Notes under the pieces: model-generated | Told to the model about the DNA's origin: nothing | The model's database searches: none | Seen by the model: only the letters and a program-made list of their open reading frames with translations | Assembly: GCA_021299375.1 (NCBI GenBank) | Contig: JAJTGR010000002.1 | Location: forward strand, 1 to 64,000 | Source of the DNA: Gemmatimonadota bacterium | GTDB taxonomy: Bacteria > Gemmatimonadota > Gemmatimonadetes > Gemmatimonadales > Gemmatimonadaceae | DNA length: 64,000 nucleotides | Reading direction: 5' to 3' | Translations under genes and position numbers: made by a program | Part shown: positions 3,012-39,062 of the stretch, piece by piece | Position numbering within the stretch: position 1 is the first letter of the stretch | Layout of the letters: each line of letters opens with the position of its first letter

Positions 3012-4352
3012 ATGGCTGATTCGGCTGATCTCATCCACACGGTGTCGGCTGCGGCGCAGCCGCTCACCGGGGCCCCTGCGGACTTCGACGTCATCCTCGA
3101 ACACGCCGCCGACGCGTCGGTGGTGCTCATCGGCGAGGCGTCGCACGGCACCCACGACTTCTATCGTGTGCGAGCCGAGCTCACCAAGCGGCTCATACGC
3201 GAGCACGCATTTGCCGGCGTGGCCGTGGAGGCCGACTGGCCCGATGCCTTCCGCGTCAACCGCTACGTGCGCGGCCTCTCGGACGATGCCGACGCTCACG
3301 AAGCGCTGGGTGGGTTCCGGCGATTTCCTCAGTGGATGTGGCGCAATGCCGACGTGCTCGACTTCGTGGGATGGCTGCGGGCGTACAACGATGCCTTGCC
3401 GACAGCCGCGCCGCGGGTGGGCTTCTACGGCCTCGATCTCTACAGCCTGCACGCGTCCATGGCGGCCGTACTGTCGTATCTCGACATCGTCGACCCCGAC
3501 GCGGCGGCCCGCGCCCGCCGGCGCTACGCCTGCTTCGACCACTTCGGCGACGATCCCCAGGAGTACGGCTACGCGGCTACCCGCGGCTGGGCCGAATCGT
3601 GCGAGGGCGACGTGGTGGCGCAGTTGCTCGAGCTGCAGCAGGCGGCGGCCACGTACGCGCCGCGCGATGGCCGGGTGCTGGCTGACGCGCACTTTTTCGC
3701 CGAACAGAATGCGCGGCTCGTCCGCAACGCGGAGGCATACTATCGGGCGATGTTCCGTGGGCGGGCCGCCTCGTGGAACCTGCGCGACCGGCACATGTTC
3801 GACACGCTGGGGCACTTGGCGACGCATCTTGCCGCGGAGCGCGGCTGCGCGGCGCGATTGGTGGTGTGGGCCCACAATTCGCACCTCGGCGACGCCTCGG
3901 CCACCGAGATGGCCACGCACGGCGAGTTGAACCTTGGCCAGCTGGCGCGCGAGGCCATGGGCCCGCGGAGTCTGCACGTCGGATTCACCACCCACGGTGG
4001 CACGGTGACGGCAGCCTCGGACTGGGGTGGGCCAGCCCAACGCATGATGGTGCGGCCGGCACTCCCCGGGAGCTGCGAGCAGCTGTTGCACGAGGTGGGA
4101 ACGAGCCTGCTGCTCGACTTCCGGGGCCGTAGCGACCTGCGCGAGGCACTCGCTACGCCGCGCCTGCAGCGCGCGATCGGTGTGATCTACCGGCCCGAGA
4201 CTGAACGCCAGAGCCACTACTTCCTGACGCGGCTGCCCCAGCAATTCGACGTACTGCTGCACTACGATGTGACGCGTGCCGTGGAACCCCTCGAGCGTAC
4301 AGGGCTCTGGGACCGGGGCGAGTTCCCGGCGACGTATCCGTCGGCGCTGTAG
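3012..4352 (+). CDS. Erythromycin esterase family protein
   Basis: 446 residues, the normal length for the erythromycin-esterase family (Ere-like, PF05139). The family signature residues are all present: G-E-A-S-H-G-T-H-D-F near residue 42 (first His), V-E-A-D-W-P-D near residue 72 (catalytic Glu) and W-A-H-N-S-H-L-G-D near residue 285 (second His). Known members hydrolyse macrolide lactones, but most chromosomal relatives have unknown substrates, so resistance should not be assumed. There is no signal peptide, so it is cytoplasmic. TACCTT lies three bases before the ATG, with GTGCCA 17 bases further up (2980-2985), and no Shine-Dalgarno is obvious. Confidence 0.88.
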   Translation: MADSADLIHTVSAAAQPLTGAPADFDVILEHAADASVVLIGEASHGTHDFYRVRAELTKRLIREHAFAGVAVEADWPDAFRVNRYVRGLSDDADAHEALGGFRRFPQWMWRNADVLDFVGWLRAYNDALPTAAPRVGFYGLDLYSLHASMAAVLSYLDIVDPDAAARARRRYACFDHFGDDPQEYGYAATRGWAESCEGDVVAQLLELQQAAATYAPRDGRVLADAHFFAEQNARLVRNAEAYYRAMFRGRAASWNLRDRHMFDTLGHLATHLAAERGCAARLVVWAHNSHLGDASATEMATHGELNLGQLAREAMGPRSLHVGFTTHGGTVTAASDWGGPAQRMMVRPALPGSCEQLLHEVGTSLLLDFRGRSDLREALATPRLQRAIGVIYRPETERQSHYFLTRLPQQFDVLLHYDVTRAVEPLERTGLWDRGEFPATYPSAL

Positions 4353-28655: not shown

Positions 28656-29985
28656 GTGGTGCGACGATTTCATGCCGGAGGCGTCGGCTTGTCGCTGGCC
28701 CTCCGGAGCGGTGCCTCCGCCCCTGCACTCCCTGCGCAGCCACCCACGGTCATCCTCGGGCGGCCGACCGCGGAGGACGTGACCCTGAACCTCCTGAGCG
28801 GCGTCACGGGCGAGGGCTATATCGAATTCGGCCGAGCGCCCGGGCCCTTCACCACCCGCACCCCCGCGCAGCCCCTCGTGGCCGGTGTGCCCACGGAAAT
28901 CGAGGTGCGCGCCCTGCGTTCCGACACGCGGTACGTGTACCGGCTACGTCATCGTAAGGCCGGGGCAGTCGACTTTGCCGCCGAGGCGACTGCCCAGTGG
29001 CATACCCAGCGCGCGCCCGGGCGCGCGTTCATCTTCAGCGTGCAGGGCGACTCGCACCCCGAGCGACCCGGACGCATGTACGATCCGTCGCTCTACCTGC
29101 GCACCATGCAGCATGTGGTGGCCGGTGACCCGGACTTCCATGTCACGCTGGGCGACGACTTCAGCATCGAACGGCTCATCGCATCGGGGCGCCTCGCGCC
29201 AGCCACGGTGAACGCGGTGTATGCGCAGCAGCGTCCGTTCCTGGGCGTGGTGGGGCGGCAGGCCGCGCTGTTTCTGGTGAATGGCAATCACGAGGAGGCG
29301 GCACCATTCCTGTTGGATGGTACGCCCAACAGCGCGGCGGCGCTCGCCGGACGGGCGCGCACGACGTTCTACTCCCTCCCCGCCCCTGATGGCTTCTACA
29401 CGGGCGACACCGCGCGTGTCGAGCACGTGGGCCTGCTGCGCGACTACTACGCCTGGACATGGGGCGATGCGCTCTTTGTAGTGATCGATCCGTACTGGCA
29501 CTCCACGGTGCCGCCGGATGGGGAGCCGGACGCCGGGGCCGCTACCCCGCGCGCCGCCGGAGATAGCGCGCGAGACGAGCGACGCGCGGCGGGAGGCGGG
29601 CGTGGCCGCGCGGGGGCGAGCCGAAGCCCGAACCGGGAGGCGGGACGTATGGCCGCTGCCCATTCACCAACTCTTCGTGCGGACCGGCGTGACGATCTTC
29701 TTCCAGGGGCACGATCACCTCTACGCCCGCCAGGAGCGCGATGGCGTGATCTACCAGTCGACGCCCAACCCCGCCGATCCCACCTACACGGCGTTCAACC
29801 GGGAGGCCTATCGCCCGGGGGACGTGCTCCCCAACAGCGGCCACCTGCGCGTGAGCGTCTCCCCCACGGACGTGCGCGTGGACTATGTCCGCTCCGTCCT
29901 GCCGCGCGACGAGTCGCCCCAGCAGCGCGACGGCACCGTGGCCACGAGGTACCGCATCACCGCCTCCCCGAGGAACGAGCCCTGA
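28656..29985 (+). pseudogene. Metallophosphatase copy 1, internally deleted and frameshifted
   Basis: The N-terminal part has a purple-acid-phosphatase-like N-domain (residues about 30-110) and metallophosphatase motifs: D-x-H in V-Q-G-D-S-H, G-D-D in L-G-D-D-F and G-N-H-E in V-N-G-N-H-E-E-A. It stays in frame to V-V-I-D-P-Y-W at about 29500. Homology resumes in another frame at W-P-L-P-I-H-Q-L-F (about 29655), with G-H-D-H in F-Q-G-H-D-H-L-Y. Copy 2 has about 90 residues between these points, including the metal-binding H-H of F-V-F-A-H-H; here only about 50 codons of biased sequence remain and that motif is gone. The first half begins at GTG 28656. Its stop overlaps copy 2 by four bases. 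Confidence 0.8.
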
Positions 29986-31448
29986 CGCCATTCATCCGAC
30001 CCCTCCGCCGCATTGCCCTGCTCACGACGATGCTCACGGTCGCGTGCGACGCGTCGCGGCTGCCGAGTGAGGCCTCGTCGCCACCAGTGAGCCCACCCGT
30101 CGTGCGTCCGGTCGGCACGGCCGGTGCCTTTCGTGGTTCGGTCATCCTGGGCGTTCCCACCGGCACCGGCATCACCGCCAACGTCTGGGCCGCCGATCAG
30201 GGGGGCACCGTGGCGCTGCTCTACGGGACCGCACCCGGCGTGTACACGGCGCAGACCCCGGCGCGCACCCTCACGGCCGATGTGCCGCTGGAGATTCCGC
30301 TGGAAGGGCTGACGCCCAACACGCGCTACTACTACCGGCTGCAGTACACGGGCAGCGTCATGGGACCCACGGAGGAGCGCAGCTTCCGCACCGCCCCGCC
30401 GGCCGGTGGCACGTTCCGCTTCGGCCTGCAGGGTGATTCGCATCCGGAGCGGGAGCGATCGCAGTTCGACGCGTCGCTCTACACCCGCACGCTGCAGGCC
30501 GCGGCCAACGACAGCCTCGATTTCTACGTCATGCTGGGCGACGACTTCAGCGTGGACGTGCTCGACCCGGCCACGGTGACCGAAACGCAGGTGCGGGGCC
30601 GGTACACGCTGCAGCGCCCGTGGCTGGGCATCATCGGCGCCATGTCGCCGCTCTTTCTCGTGAACGGCAATCATGAGCAGGCGGCGCGCTACCTGCTGAA
30701 CGGCACACCCAACAGCGTCGCGGTCTGGGCCCAGAACGCTCGCAACCGGCTCTTCTCCCAGCCGGCGCCGGACGCGTTCTACAGCGGCAACACGGAGCAG
30801 GTTCCGCACATTGGGCTGCTGCGCAACTACTACGCCTTCACGTGGGGTGACGCCCTGTTCGTGGTCATCGATCCGTACTGGGGGTCGGACGTGTGCGTGG
30901 ACAATCCGTTCTTCGGGGGCGACAAGCGTAGCGACTTGTGGACGGTGACGCACGGCGACGCGCAGTACCAGTGGCTCAAGACCACACTCGAGGGCAGCCG
31001 CGCCCGCTACAAGTTCGTCTTCGCGCATCATGTCATGGGAACGGGGCGAGGCGGCATCGAGATCGCGCGTCTCTACGAATGGGGTGGACGCAGCCCGAGT
31101 GGCAACACCGACTTCGCCTCGCGCCGGCCGTCCTGGCCGGTACCCATTCACACGCTGTTCGTGCAGAACCGGGTGAGTGCGTTCTTTCAGGGGCACGACC
31201 ACATCTGGGTGCGGCAGGAACTCGACGGCGTGGTCTACCAGTCCGTGTCCGAACCCGCCGACCCCAACTACTCGCTCTTCAACGCCGATGCCTACACCAC
31301 CGGCATCAAGTTCCCCAACTCCGGATACACGCGCGTCACCGTGGCCCCCAGCGGGGCCAGGGTGGAGTACGTGCGCATGTACCGGACTGCCGACGAGTCG
31401 GCACAACGCGTGAGCGGCACCGTGGCCTACAGCTACGTCATCCCATGA
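29982..31448 (+). CDS. Metallophosphatase copy 2, intact lipoprotein with PAP-like N-domain
   Basis: 488 residues. The N-terminus (P-L-R-R-I-A-L-L-T-T-M-L-T-V-A-C) is a lipoprotein signal with its lipobox Cys near residue 17, so it is membrane-anchored outside the cytoplasm. A purple-acid-phosphatase N-type beta domain (about residues 45-135) precedes the calcineurin-like domain with every metal motif: L-Q-G-D-S-H, L-G-D-D-F, V-N-G-N-H-E, F-V-F-A-H-H and F-Q-G-H-D-H. It should hydrolyse phosphoesters; the substrate is unknown. No ATG/GTG/TTG stands at a sensible place: the only fitting start is CTG 29982, sharing the preceding TGA (CTGA). ATG 30030 would remove most of the signal peptide. Confidence 0.83.
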   Translation: MTPFIRPLRRIALLTTMLTVACDASRLPSEASSPPVSPPVVRPVGTAGAFRGSVILGVPTGTGITANVWAADQGGTVALLYGTAPGVYTAQTPARTLTADVPLEIPLEGLTPNTRYYYRLQYTGSVMGPTEERSFRTAPPAGGTFRFGLQGDSHPERERSQFDASLYTRTLQAAANDSLDFYVMLGDDFSVDVLDPATVTETQVRGRYTLQRPWLGIIGAMSPLFLVNGNHEQAARYLLNGTPNSVAVWAQNARNRLFSQPAPDAFYSGNTEQVPHIGLLRNYYAFTWGDALFVVIDPYWGSDVCVDNPFFGGDKRSDLWTVTHGDAQYQWLKTTLEGSRARYKFVFAHHVMGTGRGGIEIARLYEWGGRSPSGNTDFASRRPSWPVPIHTLFVQNRVSAFFQGHDHIWVRQELDGVVYQSVSEPADPNYSLFNADAYTTGIKFPNSGYTRVTVAPSGARVEYVRMYRTADESAQRVSGTVAYSYVIP

Positions 31449-33111
31449 GCACGCTCGGCGTGTCACCAGCCAGGATGCTCCGGCCCTTGCGGTGGAGCGT
31501 CGTCGTCGGCGCCCTGCTGCTGCTTGCGTGCGGCCAGCCGAGCGCGCCCGCATCGACCAGCGCACCGCCCGCTACGCCCGTCACGCCGGTCGTGGCCTCG
31601 GTCACCGTGTCACCGGCGACCGCGGTGCTGGCCGTGGGTGCCACCGTCGACCTCTCGGCGGCAGGGTTCGACCGGAATGGCACGGCCGTGCCTGGCCGCA
31701 CGGTCAGCTGGAACTCGGCGACACCCGCCGTCGCCACGGTGTCGAACGCCGGGCGGGTCACGGCCGTGACGGCAGGAACCGCCAGCATCCGCGCCACCAT
31801 CGACGGGCAGAGCGCGACGGCCAGCATCACGGTCACCACGGTGCCTGGCGGCAGTGACGGCTTCGTCACCGCCGTACCGCCCATCGATTTCAATGTCATC
31901 CCCGCGCGTCCGACGGAAACGTCCATCGCCCTGAGCCTCTACTCGGCCAGCACGCGTACCGTGACGGTCACCCTGCTCGACGAGAATCGCGTCGTCACGC
32001 AGGCGCTCACGGGTGGCGAGCCCGCCGTGCTTGAACTCACCGGCCTTGCCCCCGAGCGCAGCTACCGGTACCGGATCACCGGACCGTCGCTGTCGTTCAC
32101 GGGGGCGTTCCGCACCGCCAGACGCACCGGGTCGGCGTTCCGGTTCGTGATGCAGGCGGACTCGCATCTCGACACCAACACCGACCCGGCGCTGTATACC
32201 AACACGCTGCGCAACATGGTGGCCGACAGCGCGGACTTCCTTGTCGATCTGGGCGACACGTTCATGTCCGACAAGTACGCGGACTTCCGCGATGCCGCCG
32301 CCCAGTACTACGCCCAGCGTCACTACTTCGGCATCGTGGGCACGGTCATGCCCACGTTCCTCGTGCAAGGCAATCACGACGCCGAGAACGGCTGGCTGGG
32401 CGCCAACACCACGTGGGCCGCGCAGCAGCGCGTGCGGTGGTTCCCGCCCATCATCGGCAATGCGCTTTACAGCACCGCGTTCCTCCCGCGCAACTATTAC
32501 GCCTGGCGCTGGGGCGATGCCACGTTCATCGCGCTCGATCCCTACACCTTCACCGCCACGCAGCCCAATCGCGCGGGATCGAGCTGGCGTGGACGCTTGG
32601 CCGTGAACAGTACGACTGGCTCGAGCGCACGCTCCGGGGCACCACGACGCCCTTCACGTTCGTGTTCCTGCATCACCTCGTGGGTGGGCGCGGCTTCGAG
32701 GCACGCGGCGGCGTCGAGGCGTCGTATGCGTTCGAATGGGGCGGCGCCAACCTCGACGGCACGCCGGGCTTCACCGCCAACCGGCCGGGTTGGACGGCGC
32801 CCATTCACCAGCTGCTCGTGCAGTATCAGGTGTCCGCTGTCTTCCATGGGCACGATCACCTGTACGTGAATCAGCAACGCGACGGCATCCGCTACCAGGA
32901 AGTGCCGCAGCCTGGCTTTCCCCGCGACAATGCCACGGCCAGCGCGGTCGATTACGGCTACCTGTCCGGCGTACTGCTGGGCAGCTCCGGGCACCTGCGG
33001 GTGTCGGTGGCCAGCGACCGGGCCGTTGTCGAGTACGTGCGATCGCGCCTGACGACCGGCAACGGGGCCGTCGTCGACCGCTACGAGATCCTTCCCGCGA
33101 GACGGCCATGA
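31445..33111 (+). pseudogene. Metallophosphatase copy 3 with BIG2 domain, frameshifted
   Basis: Starts at ATG 31445 (ATGA overlap). The lipoprotein signal (V-V-V-G-A-L-L-L-L-A-C) is followed by a bacterial Ig-like BIG2 domain (about residues 55-135: V-A-S-V-T-V-S-P-A-T ... V-A-T-V-S-N-A-G-R-V-T-A), a linker domain and a calcineurin-like domain: M-Q-A-D-S-H, L-G-D-T-F, V-Q-G-N-H-D. Near 32570-32585 the frame changes: the first frame carries F-I-A-L-D-P-Y-T-F-T, the other W-T-L-G-R-E-Q-Y-D-W-L-E, F-V-F-L-H-H and F-H-G-H-D-H to stop 33111. One missing base would restore a full gene of about 555 residues with all metal ligands. This may be a recent mutation or a sequencing error. Confidence 0.8.
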
Positions 33112-34607
33112 ACACGCGTGCGTTGCTCCGTCGAACGTTCGACCGGGTCCGCAGACTGCCGGCCGGCGCGGTGCTCCTGGGCGCGGGCATCGGCTGCGGC
33201 GGAGGCGAGGCCGCGTCGGCGCCGTCGTCGGGCGGCACGCCAACGCTACCCCCGACGGCCAGCTTCGTGATCACGAGCAGCGATGCGGCCAACCGGGTGC
33301 TTCCCTTCACGTATACCTGCGACGGGGATGCCAAGTCGCCGCCCCTTGCCTGGAGCGGCGCCCCGGCGGGCACGACGCAGTTCGCCCTGCTCATGACCAC
33401 GATTCCAAGCCAGGGGAGCACCAAGTACAACTGGGTGCTCTACGGCATTCCATCGGGCACCGTGTCCATTCCCGTCGGCACCAGCGTCGGCACCGTGGGA
33501 CAGGCCGACGATGGCGCGGGCACCAACTATGCGCCGCCCTGCTCGCAGGGGCCCGGGGCGAAGGAGTACACGTTCACGCCGTACGCCCTGTCGTCGGCGC
33601 CCTCGCTTGACGGGGCGAACCCGGCGCAGGTCACCGGCGCCACGCTCGTGAACGCCATTGCCGACCGCACGCTCGCCAAGGCTACGCTCACCGTGACCGT
33701 TAACCGCACGGTGGCGATGATCAATTGCGGCTACGTCCGCAACTCGGTCGCCGCCTACCGCACGGCCACCGCCGTCGACGTCACCTGTGATTCGACCTAC
33801 GCCGCCATCAGCACCCTCGGCATCCAGAGTCGGCACGCCATGATGACGGGCATCCGGGCCACCAACCAGCAGGTGCCCGTTCCGCAGAACTTCACGGGCA
33901 CCAATGCCTGGCGTATTCCGCTCACGCCCGTGGTGGCCGGCACCAAGGTGTCGGCGGTGGATGGGCCGATCGGTATCGCGGTGAACGGCGTCCCGATCTT
34001 CAATCCCTGCAAGCAGGGGGGATGCAGCGGTCCTGGAGGCGGCGATACCAAGGTGCTCGGTGAGCTCGACACCTGCAATGGACACGCCGGCCGCGCCGAC
34101 GATTATCACTACCACGCGGCCCCGATCTGCATGATGAGCGACCAGAACGCCGCCTACTGGGACACGCATCCGCTGGGTTGGGCACTCGACGGATACGCCA
34201 TCTTCGGCTATCGCAACCCCGACGGCACCACCGCGCCCCGCGATGCGGTCTGCGGTGGCAACACGGTGACGCATCCCAACGCGCCCGCCGGTTACGCCTA
34301 CCACGTGACCGAGGTGAGTCCCTACATCCTCAGTTGCTTCTTCGGCGTGCCGAGCCCCGATCTGGCCGGGCAGGGCGGGAAGTACCAGCCCCTCCGGCCG
34401 CCGGGCACTCCCATGCCCTCCACCAACATGACGCTGGATGCGACGGCGGCGTCGCTCGCCATCGGCGGCACGTCCACCATGCGGTGGCAGAACGGGGCCG
34501 CCGCCTACCAGATCCGCTACACCCGCACATCGGCCGCCTGCTGGACGTTCAGCTTCGTCACCAACGGGGCCGAGACCTCGAGCGCCAACTACTGCCGCAG
34601 CCGATGA
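33108..34607 (+). CDS. PEBP-YHYH fusion lipoprotein
   Basis: 499 residues. A lipoprotein signal (A-G-A-V-L-L-G-A-G-I-G-C) is followed by two recognisable domains. Residues about 50-200 form a YbhB/YbcL-type phosphatidylethanolamine-binding (PEBP) domain (F-T-Y-T-C-D-G-D-A-K-S-P-P-L-A-W, F-A-L-L-M-T-T-I-P, W-V-L-Y-G-I-P). Residues about 240-410 form a YHYH domain with its name motif D-D-Y-H-Y-H-A-A-P, plus G-W-A-L-D-G-Y-A-I-F-G-Y and paired cysteines. A C-terminal tail of about 60 residues contains W-Q-N-G-A-A-A-Y-Q-I-R. Ligands of either domain are unknown here. The ATG overlaps the stop of copy 3 (ATGA), and its own stop overlaps the next start the same way. Confidence 0.85.
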   Translation: MNTRALLRRTFDRVRRLPAGAVLLGAGIGCGGGEAASAPSSGGTPTLPPTASFVITSSDAANRVLPFTYTCDGDAKSPPLAWSGAPAGTTQFALLMTTIPSQGSTKYNWVLYGIPSGTVSIPVGTSVGTVGQADDGAGTNYAPPCSQGPGAKEYTFTPYALSSAPSLDGANPAQVTGATLVNAIADRTLAKATLTVTVNRTVAMINCGYVRNSVAAYRTATAVDVTCDSTYAAISTLGIQSRHAMMTGIRATNQQVPVPQNFTGTNAWRIPLTPVVAGTKVSAVDGPIGIAVNGVPIFNPCKQGGCSGPGGGDTKVLGELDTCNGHAGRADDYHYHAAPICMMSDQNAAYWDTHPLGWALDGYAIFGYRNPDGTTAPRDAVCGGNTVTHPNAPAGYAYHVTEVSPYILSCFFGVPSPDLAGQGGKYQPLRPPGTPMPSTNMTLDATAASLAIGGTSTMRWQNGAAAYQIRYTRTSAACWTFSFVTNGAETSSANYCRSR

Positions 34608-35197
34608 CGGTCACCCGCCGCCGCTTGGTGCACCTGATCGGCCTCGTGACGCTGCTGGGCGTGTCGGGTGCCACGGCGCGGGCGCACGACCTGGCCGAGG
34701 CCAGCGCCGCGCTCGTGGTGCGTGACGGCGGACACCTCGAACTGCGCCTGCAGGTGCCATGGGCTGCGCTGCTGCAGGCGGACCGGATGCCGGGACGCCC
34801 CCTGCCGGAGTTCCTGATGTACGTGTCGGCCATGTCGCCGTCGACGTTCGACGGGCACTACCGGCGGCTGGTGGCCCGGCTGGAGCGCGCGTTCCGCCTC
34901 ACCCGACCAGCCGCGGCCCCGGTGACGTTTCAGCGGTGGGTGTGGCCGCGCAGCGCAGCGGTCCAGCAGGCCGTCCAGCGGGAGCTGATGTCGCGCCTCG
35001 CCGACGGTGCAAACGCCGAGCACGCTGCACGCCTGCCGGCGACGGCCGAAGCGGTAGTGGGGGGCGGCGTTGCGAGCGTGGCGCTCGAGGTGCCCGCGCT
35101 GCTCACCCCGCTGCTGCTCACCGTCACGCGACCGCAGGCGCAGTGGGTGCGCGCGGGGCAACCTGCGGTCGTGGTGCCGTTGGGGATGCGGCGTTAG
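34604..35197 (+). CDS. Secreted protein ending the metallophosphatase/YHYH operon
   Basis: 197 residues. The N-terminus (T-R-R-R-L-V-H-L-I-G-L-V-T-L-L-G-V, cleavage near A-R-A-H) is a signal peptide with a basic, twin-arginine-like start. The mature part begins H-D-L-A-E-A-S-A-A-L-V-V, resembling the extracytoplasmic start of HupE/UreJ-like proteins, but no membrane segments follow, so it is either a stand-alone domain or a different family. The rest is beta/alpha with W-V-W-P-R-S-A-A-V-Q-Q. It starts at the ATGA overlap with the YHYH gene and is followed by a large palindrome. Confidence 0.72.
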   Translation: MTVTRRRLVHLIGLVTLLGVSGATARAHDLAEASAALVVRDGGHLELRLQVPWAALLQADRMPGRPLPEFLMYVSAMSPSTFDGHYRRLVARLERAFRLTRPAAAPVTFQRWVWPRSAAVQQAVQRELMSRLADGANAEHAARLPATAEAVVGGGVASVALEVPALLTPLLLTVTRPQAQWVRAGQPAVVVPLGMRR

Positions 35198-36926: not shown

Positions 36927-38030
36927 TCAGGCCGATTCACGCCGTGCCAGCTTCGCCGCATACATCGCTTCGTCGGTGCGCTTCACCCACGCGTCGAGCG
37001 TCTCGCCGTGCCGCCACTCGGCGCTGCCGGTACTCGCCGCCAACGCAAGGCCTTGCTCGGTGTACGGCCAGGGCTCTCCACCGAGGGCCTCCGTAAACCG
37101 CTCCTCCAGCCGACCAGCCATGGCCGCGGAGGTGTTGGGCAGCACCACGGCGAATTCGTCACCGCCGATCCGACACACCACGTCCGATTCCCGCAGAAAG
37201 ACGCGGTGCAGCACCTTGGCCACCGTCATGAGGGCGGCGTCCCCCATCTGGTGTCCGAGCCGATCGTTGATGGGCTTGAGATTGTCGAGGTCGACCATCA
37301 CCAGCGCGATCGGATGCCCGCCGAGTGCGTGCAGGTGCAGCTGGCGCGCCAGCGTACGCTGGAAGCAGAGACGGTTGCCCAGGCCGGTCAGCGGGTCGGT
37401 CTCGCTGGCGCGCTGGGCCTCGTCGAGCTGGGAGCCCAACTGCTCGATGCGGGCGGCGAGTAGACCGAACGTGGCGCGATGGGAATCACGCCGCTGTGCC
37501 GACAGGGCTTCGAGCGTACGCATGGCGTGTGAGATCTCGGTCTTCACGACGCCGGTCTCGAGGCCCTCAAGGGCCCCGCGCACTCGATCCATCTGGACCG
37601 AGGCGGCGGTGTCGGTCTCATACTCCGTCTGCAGCGCCTGATACGTCCGTTCCACGCACACCCACAGCGCATCCCGCAGGTCGCGCAGCGCCGTCTCCAC
37701 GAACTGCTTCTCGGTTCGGCGATGCTCCCCGAAGGTGCGGCTGACACCCGCCCAGTCGCGCTCCGGGATCGCCCCGCCCGAGGTGCTGGTTTCGTCGGCA
37801 TCGGGCGCCCGGGTCCCGATCATGGCATGCCGGTGCCATGCGCCGAACGTGGCCCGCGTCTCGCCCTCGGGTCGATCGGGAAGGTCGAACAGGCCATGGG
37901 TGTATGCCGCCAGCACCTGCCCCAGCGTATCGAGCACCGGTGTCACCGCATCCGGGACAGCACCGCCATCGGCGGCGCAGCCCTCAGGCTGGGAGGGTGT
38001 GGAAACAGGACTCGGGCGCTTGAAGAACAT
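36927..38030 (-). CDS. GGDEF diguanylate cyclase
   Basis: 367 residues, cytoplasmic. The N-terminal 190 residues are helical without a recognised sensor domain (W-V-C-V-E-R-T-Y-Q-A-L-Q-T-E), followed by a short coiled coil. The GGDEF domain (about 205-367) has D-P-L-T-G-L-G-N-R, D-L-D-N-L-K-P-I-N-D and an intact R-I-G-G-D-E-F active site, so it should make cyclic di-GMP from GTP. An inhibitory I-site R-E-S-D lies five residues before the active site, so product feedback is expected. ATG 38030 is preferred because GGAGG stands about seven bases before it. A c-di-GMP signalling role is family knowledge; the input signal is unknown. Confidence 0.88.
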   Translation of the reverse strand: MFFKRPSPVSTPSQPEGCAADGGAVPDAVTPVLDTLGQVLAAYTHGLFDLPDRPEGETRATFGAWHRHAMIGTRAPDADETSTSGGAIPERDWAGVSRTFGEHRRTEKQFVETALRDLRDALWVCVERTYQALQTEYETDTAASVQMDRVRGALEGLETGVVKTEISHAMRTLEALSAQRRDSHRATFGLLAARIEQLGSQLDEAQRASETDPLTGLGNRLCFQRTLARQLHLHALGGHPIALVMVDLDNLKPINDRLGHQMGDAALMTVAKVLHRVFLRESDVVCRIGGDEFAVVLPNTSAAMAGRLEERFTEALGGEPWPYTEQGLALAASTGSAEWRHGETLDAWVKRTDEAMYAAKLARRESA

Positions 38031-38162
38031 GGATATCCTCCGGGAGAGACAGGCAGGCAAGCCGCCGCGCAGCTGCCTCCGGAGTATCGACGGCAGGGGG
38101 CAACGGCTTCAGTGCCAGCGGGTCGGGCAGCGAGGCGCTCACGGGGCCGATATGTTCCGGCC

Positions 38163-39062
38163 ATGCGACTCCTCCCCGTTCTCGCGTTCGTGAGCGCGCT
38201 GGCCGGCGCACTCATCAGCGGTGATGCTGCTTACGCGCAGCGACCCGTACCCGCGGCGCTCCGCCGCACCCTCGACAGCCTCGCCGACGCCCACCGCGGC
38301 GTGGTCGGCTATCACATCACCAACCTCGAGACGGGCGAAACCCTCGAGCGGCGCGGCGACGAAACCTTCCCCACGGCGTCGCTGATCAAGGTGCCGGTGC
38401 TGGTGGCGCTGTTCGATTTGGCCGAGCAGCAGCAGCTCTCACTCGATGATCCGATCGTCCTCACGGACATCGACAAGGTCGGCGGCGCCGGGCAGCTGCA
38501 GTTCTTGCGCACCCCGCTCACGCTGCGGCTGTGGGACGTGGCATGGCTCATGAGCACCCTCAGCGACAACACGGCCACCAACCTCGTACTCGACCGCATC
38601 AAGATCCGGCGCGTGTGGCAGAAGATGGAGGCGCTCGGCCTGCCGCACACGAAGGTGCATTCCGGATCCATGACACGCATCGCGAGCGTGGCCCCTGACA
38701 GTTCCGCCAAGTACGGCCTTGGCGTGACCACCCCAAACGAAATGGCACGGCTCTTTGCGCTGCTGGCCGAGGGAAAGGCGGTCAGTCCGCGCGCCGATTC
38801 CACCATGCTCGCCCTGCTCGAGCACAACGAGGACAGCTCGAAGCTGCTGCGCTTCAACTACGGGGTGCGCGCCGCCCACAAGACGGGCGATGTCGATGCG
38901 GCCCGCACCGACTGCGGTGTGCTGTACCTGCCGGCCCGTGTGGTGGCCTGCGTGATGACCAAGTCGAATGTCGACACGCGCTACTGGAGCGACAGCGAGG
39001 GGAACGCCGTGATCGCCCGCATCGGGCAGGCCATCACGGCGGCCTGGGGCAAGCGCCCCTGA
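38163..39062 (+). CDS. Class-A-beta-lactamase-like serine hydrolase, secreted
   Basis: 299 residues with a signal peptide (L-P-V-L-A-F-V-S-A-L-A-G-A-L-I, cleavage near A-Y-A-Q). The penicillin-recognising fold is clear: catalytic T-A-S-L-I-K near residue 77, S-D-N in L-S-D-N-T-A-T-N near 137 and K-T-G in A-H-K-T-G-D-V near 242. The omega-loop glutamate of class A enzymes (ExxLN) is not present where expected, between S-D-N and T-T-P-N-E-M; that stretch reads H-S-G-S-M-T-R-I-A-S-V-A. Deacylation of beta-lactams would therefore be doubtful. TATGTT lies exactly six bases before the ATG. Confidence 0.82.
   Translation: MRLLPVLAFVSALAGALISGDAAYAQRPVPAALRRTLDSLADAHRGVVGYHITNLETGETLERRGDETFPTASLIKVPVLVALFDLAEQQQLSLDDPIVLTDIDKVGGAGQLQFLRTPLTLRLWDVAWLMSTLSDNTATNLVLDRIKIRRVWQKMEALGLPHTKVHSGSMTRIASVAPDSSAKYGLGVTTPNEMARLFALLAEGKAVSPRADSTMLALLEHNEDSSKLLRFNYGVRAAHKTGDVDAARTDCGVLYLPARVVACVMTKSNVDTRYWSDSEGNAVIARIGQAITAAWGKRP

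Follow-up and report, generated by a model that had tools for sequence, protein, structure and literature searches.

A recurring gene pair for a PEBP-YHYH lipoprotein and an exported protein, with optional phosphatases, as a possible metalloenzyme module of the bacterial envelope

A block of five adjacent genes (28656-35197, + strand) in a 64,000-nt stretch of Gemmatimonadota DNA (hereafter the window, i.e. the whole stretch that was analysed) raises the question of whether its products form one functional unit at the cell envelope, and what such a unit would do. A preliminary description, made from the sequence alone, read the block as three tandem secreted calcineurin-like phosphatases, a PEBP-YHYH fusion lipoprotein and a final exported protein, joined at every junction by a 4-base overlap. 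According to the ORF list and the sequence, the block is real, yet it differs from that description. Among the three phosphatase genes only gene 2 has an intact frame; genes 4 and 5 are open as well, while genes 1 and 3 are frameshifted (Table 1). Moreover, inspection by eye gave no evident signal peptide for gene 1. The presence of three tandem secreted phosphatases is thus not confirmed.

Table 1. Features of the five-gene block, in positions of the window
Feature	Position	Strand	Basis
Gene 1, frameshifted remains of a calcineurin-like phosphatase of the exported type	28656..29985	+	frames, homology, alignment
Gene 2, lipobox-type metallophosphatase, clade A, intact; start probably CTG at 29982	29982..31448	+	ORF, Pfam, motifs
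Gene 3, metallophosphatase, clade C, with lipobox and N-terminal Big_2 domain, frameshifted	31445..33111	+	frames, Pfam, alignment
Gene 4, PEBP-YHYH fusion lipoprotein; PEBP residues 65-197, YHYH motif residues 333-336	33108..34607	+	Pfam, structure prediction, alignment
Gene 5, exported protein without further domains, 197 aa, predicted fold Ang-1-like	34604..35197	+	structure prediction, homologue motif
ATGA overlap of genes 2 and 3	31445..31448	+	ATGA in 3/3 relatives checked (G017, G021, L068)
ATGA overlap of genes 3 and 4	33108..33111	+	ATGA in 2/3 relatives checked (G017, G021)
ATGA overlap of genes 4 and 5	34604..34607	+	ATGA in 3/3 relatives checked (G017, G021, L068)

The 5' part of gene 1 lies in frame 0 (28656 to about 29530), and the homology of its 3' part runs in frame 1 from about 29632 to 29985. 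Compared to the closest relative (L129), about 75 residues are missing, including the HH metal-ligand motif (FSHHVLGTGRG in the relative). Gene 3 is read in frame 2 to about 32580 and then in frame 1 to 33111, with the break between the GNHD and HH motifs; the frameshift is a 1-nt deletion, and four relatives carry the extra base and read through. Homology searches with both genes split at the same places as the frame changes. Programmed frameshifting was considered for the two genes and rejected, since the shift directions differ and the relatives of gene 3 are fully open. The idea that gene 1 is a recent tandem copy of gene 2 was likewise rejected, as the phosphatase tree groups it with an Acidobacteriota homologue (L129_2378) and not with gene 2.

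As for the 4-base overlaps, the three ATGA junctions are present, whereas the CTGA between genes 1 and 2 requires a rare CTG start. In fact, frame 0 is open over 930 aa (28656-31448), from the first half of gene 1 through its out-of-frame 3' part and into gene 2, and because of this the start of gene 2 (the CTG at 29982, after GAGG) is one that we infer. Automatic annotation would probably call this frame as one false fusion gene. ATGA overlaps are common in bacterial operons, and the conserved ones in this block are normal operon architecture that has been maintained; alone they are not unusual. Judging from genome comparison, it is the finding of the gene set in other genomes that exceeds what chance would give.

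A scan of named genomes for PEBP-YHYH gave 79 loci from the best 80 of 358 hits, and since only these hits were kept, close relatives are over-represented. The loci come from Gemmatimonadota, Acidobacteriota, Leptospiraceae, Burkholderiales and other Proteobacteria, Colwellia among them. Two genomes of the genus, G017 and G021, share the arrangement of genes 2 to 5 (phosphatase A, phosphatase C, PEBP-YHYH, gene 5), two more (G012 and G003) share it in part, and the same order is present in L068, another Gemmatimonadota genome. The gene order is therefore not unique to this genome, and its recurrence in the genus, together with the joint occurrence of its parts in several phyla, speaks for the proposed functional unit at the envelope.

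The gene-neighbourhood search that had been suggested as a check did reveal co-occurrence. Within the loci from the best 80 of 358 hits, a gene-5 homologue lies directly downstream of PEBP-YHYH (under 300 nt, same strand) in 65 of 73, and family phosphatases are found nearby in 30 of 79, or in 12 of the 37 that have at least 8 kb on each side. In the same sample PEBP-YHYH and gene 5 stand alone in the fetched flanks at 36 of 79 loci, and four whole genomes with PEBP-YHYH (G322, G323, G324 and G325) have no phosphatase of the gene-2 family (E 1e-20). Therefore, this pair is the constant core, rather than the phosphatases. Among the phosphatase-bearing Gemmatimonadota genomes, PEBP-YHYH or its PEBP part occurs in 5 of 6, compared to 7 of 298 overall (Fisher p 7e-9, which is optimistic, as the genomes are related and the window's own genome is included); G307 has the PEBP part only, and in G093 the phosphatase and PEBP-YHYH are on separate contigs. 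The association of PEBP-YHYH, gene 5 and phosphatases appears to be undescribed in the literature searched, its parts being known families, and a combined search for literature linking phosphatase with PEBP found nothing.

Gene 4 matches both of its families above the cut-off, with 65.7 bits for PF01161 (PEBP; cut-off 24, E 7e-18) and 66.8 bits for PF14240 (YHYH; cut-off 25, E 3e-18). The predicted fold of the PEBP half resembles that of YbhB and CT736 (Z 21-22; Z 22.4 to 3N08), and in fold and Pfam score it goes with the YbhB/YbcL-type proteins (PDB 3N08, 1FUX). It differs from them in the pocket: every member inspected has TTxP..G instead of DPDAP, and Asn instead of the pocket His. Without the canonical pocket residues, binding of phosphatidylethanolamine is not to be assumed; phospholipid binding by this domain is unsupported by the sequences, and so is the suggested role in phospholipid processing.

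In the YHYH half, H326, D331, D332, H334, H336, D361 and H399 are invariant in 44 of 44 members, in which many Cys are conserved as well. The domain had been described as having no assigned role, but from such residues Iyer and colleagues predicted a Zn-dependent hydrolase in jumbo phages (PMC7824862). The His/Asp conservation in the 44 members agrees with that prediction, and the YHYH domain of gene 4 is thus a putative metal-dependent hydrolase. Gene 4 shares with the YHYH proteins treated there the motif and the residue set predicted to bind Zn, but it is fused to PEBP, is cysteine-rich and is a cellular lipoprotein rather than a phage tail protein. For the YHYH half, searched within gene 4, there was no solved-fold match among the matches listed, which is not evidence of a new fold. 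The literature search on PF14240 or YHYH returned phage and diatom mentions only, and no tested function of YHYH. Some members of the family are themselves irregular: the PEBP-YHYH gene of a related genome is likewise split by a frameshift (L051, G003:C40, about 693-923), an Acidobacteriota gene has one internal stop codon in the PEBP part (L106, 710-2149), and on a Loktanella salsilacus plasmid YHYH and PEBP are separate adjacent genes, in two successive pairs (L147, 6920-10342). One further locus (L080, 6675-9577) has, directly upstream of PEBP-YHYH, another YHYH protein whose domain is full-length (PF14240, 196 bits) and a HupE/UreJ_2 gene; the HupE/UreJ_2 gene is confirmed by Pfam and is one of a cluster of four. 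In Acidobacteriota and Gammaproteobacteria, an unannotated and probably exported family recurs near PEBP-YHYH (L105, L081, L086, L122, L123, L134).

The final exported protein, left unexplained in the preliminary description, is indeed an open, exported frame, and its predicted fold now points to metal binding. No family of Pfam or NCBIfam gives a meaningful score with gene 5, and no sequence relatives were found in the PDB. Its model (pLDDT 92) has as best PDB match 9GCE, the Cu-bound Ang-1 of a HupE/UreJ-2 protein (E 1.4e-4, TM 0.51, Z 9.5 over 132 residues), followed by the Zn proteins PA4063 and ZrgA; unrelated rows score far lower than 9GCE. Based on this match, which is a moderate one, gene 5 is predicted to share the Ang-1 "anglerase" fold. 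The mature protein is predicted to begin with His28 (ARA|HDL), and a His follows the apparent signal-cleavage site (judged by eye) in 75 of 77 homologue hits: 68 have the mature-end motif (His, with Arg twelve residues later) and inspection adds seven, while of the other two one clearly has no His at the mature end and the other is truncated. In the motif-positive table H1 and R13 are fully conserved because the filter used both, but H113, two Trp and three Pro, which were not selected for, are 87-94% conserved.

The anglerase paper (PMC12537917) reports for Ang-1 a Kd of 74 nM for Cu2+, a mono-histidine brace, and metallophosphatases as frequent neighbours of Ang-2 genes; YHYH and PEBP go without mention in it. 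Gene 5 resembles the anglerases (i.e. Ang-1 and Ang-2 of HupE/UreJ-2 proteins) in being exported, in its predicted first mature His and in its predicted fold. It differs in that it adjoins PEBP-YHYH, ends after the exported domain (the HupE/UreJ-2 permease domain being absent, with no Pfam match). A sequence link to Ang-1 did not show either in a PDB sequence search or in a profile comparison with only 4 HupE N-terminal domains (hhalign probability 0.2%). Because the permease is missing, gene 5 is not classed with the Ang-1 HupE proteins, although a similar mode of action is proposed; by this analogy it is predicted to grip copper or nickel through its first mature residue.

The one intact phosphatase, gene 2, has all five metal-ligand motifs (DSH, GDD, GNHE, AHH and GHDH), which are invariant in A2. 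It scores 25.9 bits for PF00149 (cut-off 21.5) and 26.2 bits for Pur_ac_phosph_N, below the cut-off of 30, and its PF16656 score also stays below the cut-off; no sequence relatives were found in the PDB. The five motifs and the N-terminal Ig-like domain are shared with calcineurin-like and purple acid phosphatases (PF00149, PF16656), from which the enzymes of the cluster differ by lipobox-type export, by their tandem paralogous clades and by their tie to PEBP-YHYH and gene 5. The tree resolves clades A, B, C and others; the usual order is A followed by B or C (reversed in L114 and L135), up to four phosphatases stand in tandem in Undibacterium and Inhella, and some carry Fn3 domains. The family is rare, with matches in 6 of 298 Gemmatimonadota genomes (E below 1e-70) and, in the order of Undibacterium, in 1 of 299 further genomes.

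Among the loci from the best 80 of 358 hits, 15 have a sensor-kinase cluster and 17 a response-regulator cluster, and a few of these seem unrelated to the module. The best NCBIfam matches of 5 of 6 kinases and 3 of 4 regulators scanned are the heavy-metal models TIGR01386/TIGR01387, all below the cut-off (218-250 against 292.55 bits; 216-221 against 279.2 bits); the Colwellia pair is closest to BaeSR, also below the cut-off. An LTXXQ-like family is present in six of the 79 loci from that sample, as well as in Chlorohelix and G307, with LTXXQ/Metal_resist-like Pfam matches (Inhella, Pelomonas, Chlorohelix) that are weak and below the cut-off. The locus in the window has neither a two-component system of this type nor an LTXXQ gene. 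Among 72,556 plasmid records, gene 5 had no match and the gene-2 family a single one (E below 1e-20), in Candidatus Chlorohelix (Chloroflexota), where the order is regulator, kinase, LTXXQ-like protein, PEBP (without the YHYH domain), phosphatase, phosphatase (L149, NZ_CP128401.1, 1914-9707). The phosphatases of this plasmid have an N-terminal twin-arginine and lipobox-like signal, and an ArsR-thioredoxin-permease set lies just upstream of the module.

How could these parts work together? After export and removal of its signal peptide, gene 5 would expose its N-terminal histidine and with it hold a transition metal, which the analogy with Ang-1 suggests to be Cu or Ni. It may thereby capture or buffer metal outside the inner membrane for its PEBP-YHYH lipoprotein partner, the YHYH part of which is predicted to be a hydrolase that depends on metal. 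Exported calcineurin-like phosphatases, of which a locus may have one to four, would split phosphoesters at the cell surface, and in many Proteobacteria the adjoining two-component system, closest to CopRS/CzcRS, probably controls the module. With genes 1 and 3 broken, only genes 2, 4 and 5 would serve the module in this assembly. A recurring metalloenzyme module of the envelope (i.e. metal-capturing gene 5, putative YHYH metallohydrolase and optional phosphatases), of which this locus would be one form, is the most likely reading, although it comes near to an even chance without reaching it. Against it stand the moderate fold match of gene 5 and its missing sequence link to Ang-1 in the searches above, the lack of a two-component system of this type and of an LTXXQ gene at the locus in the window, and the 36 of 79 loci where the fetched flanks hold the pair alone. 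The fuller claim, of a patchily distributed undescribed system in which an N-terminal-histidine metalloprotein captures copper or nickel for a YHYH metallohydrolase lipoprotein, with optional surface phosphatases and its own two-component system, is tentative and on the whole doubtful. If true, it would be a new kind of extracytoplasmic metal-and-hydrolase unit, would give the YHYH domain a defined cellular setting, and would carry the anglerase idea of 2025 beyond domains linked to a permease, to a soluble protein that partners exported enzymes. YHYH and gene 5 are both open to test, given their steady pairing in several phyla and, for gene 5, a predicted fold and an N-terminal histidine suggestive of copper.

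Other roles have been weighed against this. Phosphate scavenging would make the phosphatases the main actors, freeing phosphate from organic phosphoesters outside the cell with the other proteins assisting; the complete motifs of gene 2, the tandem arrays in Undibacterium and Inhella and the export of the enzymes (some with Fn3 domains) agree with this. It is nevertheless unlikely, because the constant pair is PEBP-YHYH and gene 5, the four genomes named above have PEBP-YHYH and no family phosphatase, 5 of 6 kinases scanned are nearer to heavy-metal than to PhoR models, and two of the three phosphatases in the window are broken. In a metal stress or homeostasis system, excess metal would be sensed and buffered by gene 5 together with the LTXXQ-like protein and the CopRS-like pair, and the hydrolases would repair or remodel the envelope. 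The heavy-metal-like regulators, the Ang-1-like predicted fold and N-terminal His of gene 5, the LTXXQ-like family and the HupE/UreJ gene near L080 fit such a role, but no metal efflux pump is prominent among the recurring neighbour clusters and the LTXXQ and regulator scores lie below their cut-offs, which leaves it rather improbable. YHYH domains are also present in structural proteins of phages, with a link to host recognition (PMC7029224), from which, together with the Fn3 and Big_2 modules that suggest surface display, a carbohydrate-binding or adhesive module could be proposed, with YHYH and PEBP binding as in phage tail proteins and the phosphatases acting on sugar phosphates. This is highly improbable, given that the invariant YHYH His/Asp set is typical of a metal site and that, outside single lineages, the cluster has no recurring gene for glycan handling.

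A different matter, compatible with the metalloenzyme module as well as with the other roles, is whether this particular copy is a decaying relic, or whether its two frameshifts are errors of sequencing or assembly. Gene 1 is both broken and shortened and gene 3 has its 1-nt deletion, while in 9 of 10 other window genes scanned the Pfam matches lie in one unbroken frame, so that the damage looks local to the block. Decay is countered by the intact genes 2, 4 and 5, and since gene 3 downstream of the shift is still 68-79% identical to its relatives, its break would be recent or false; an assembly error in turn does not sit well with gene 1, which lacks a whole stretch and not one base. That one or the other applies is a serious possibility, if somewhat less probable than its opposite. 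Elsewhere in the window, an erythromycin esterase family gene (PF05139, 438 bits) lies at 3012-4349 and a beta-lactamase enzyme family gene (PF13354, 196 bits) at 37722-39059.
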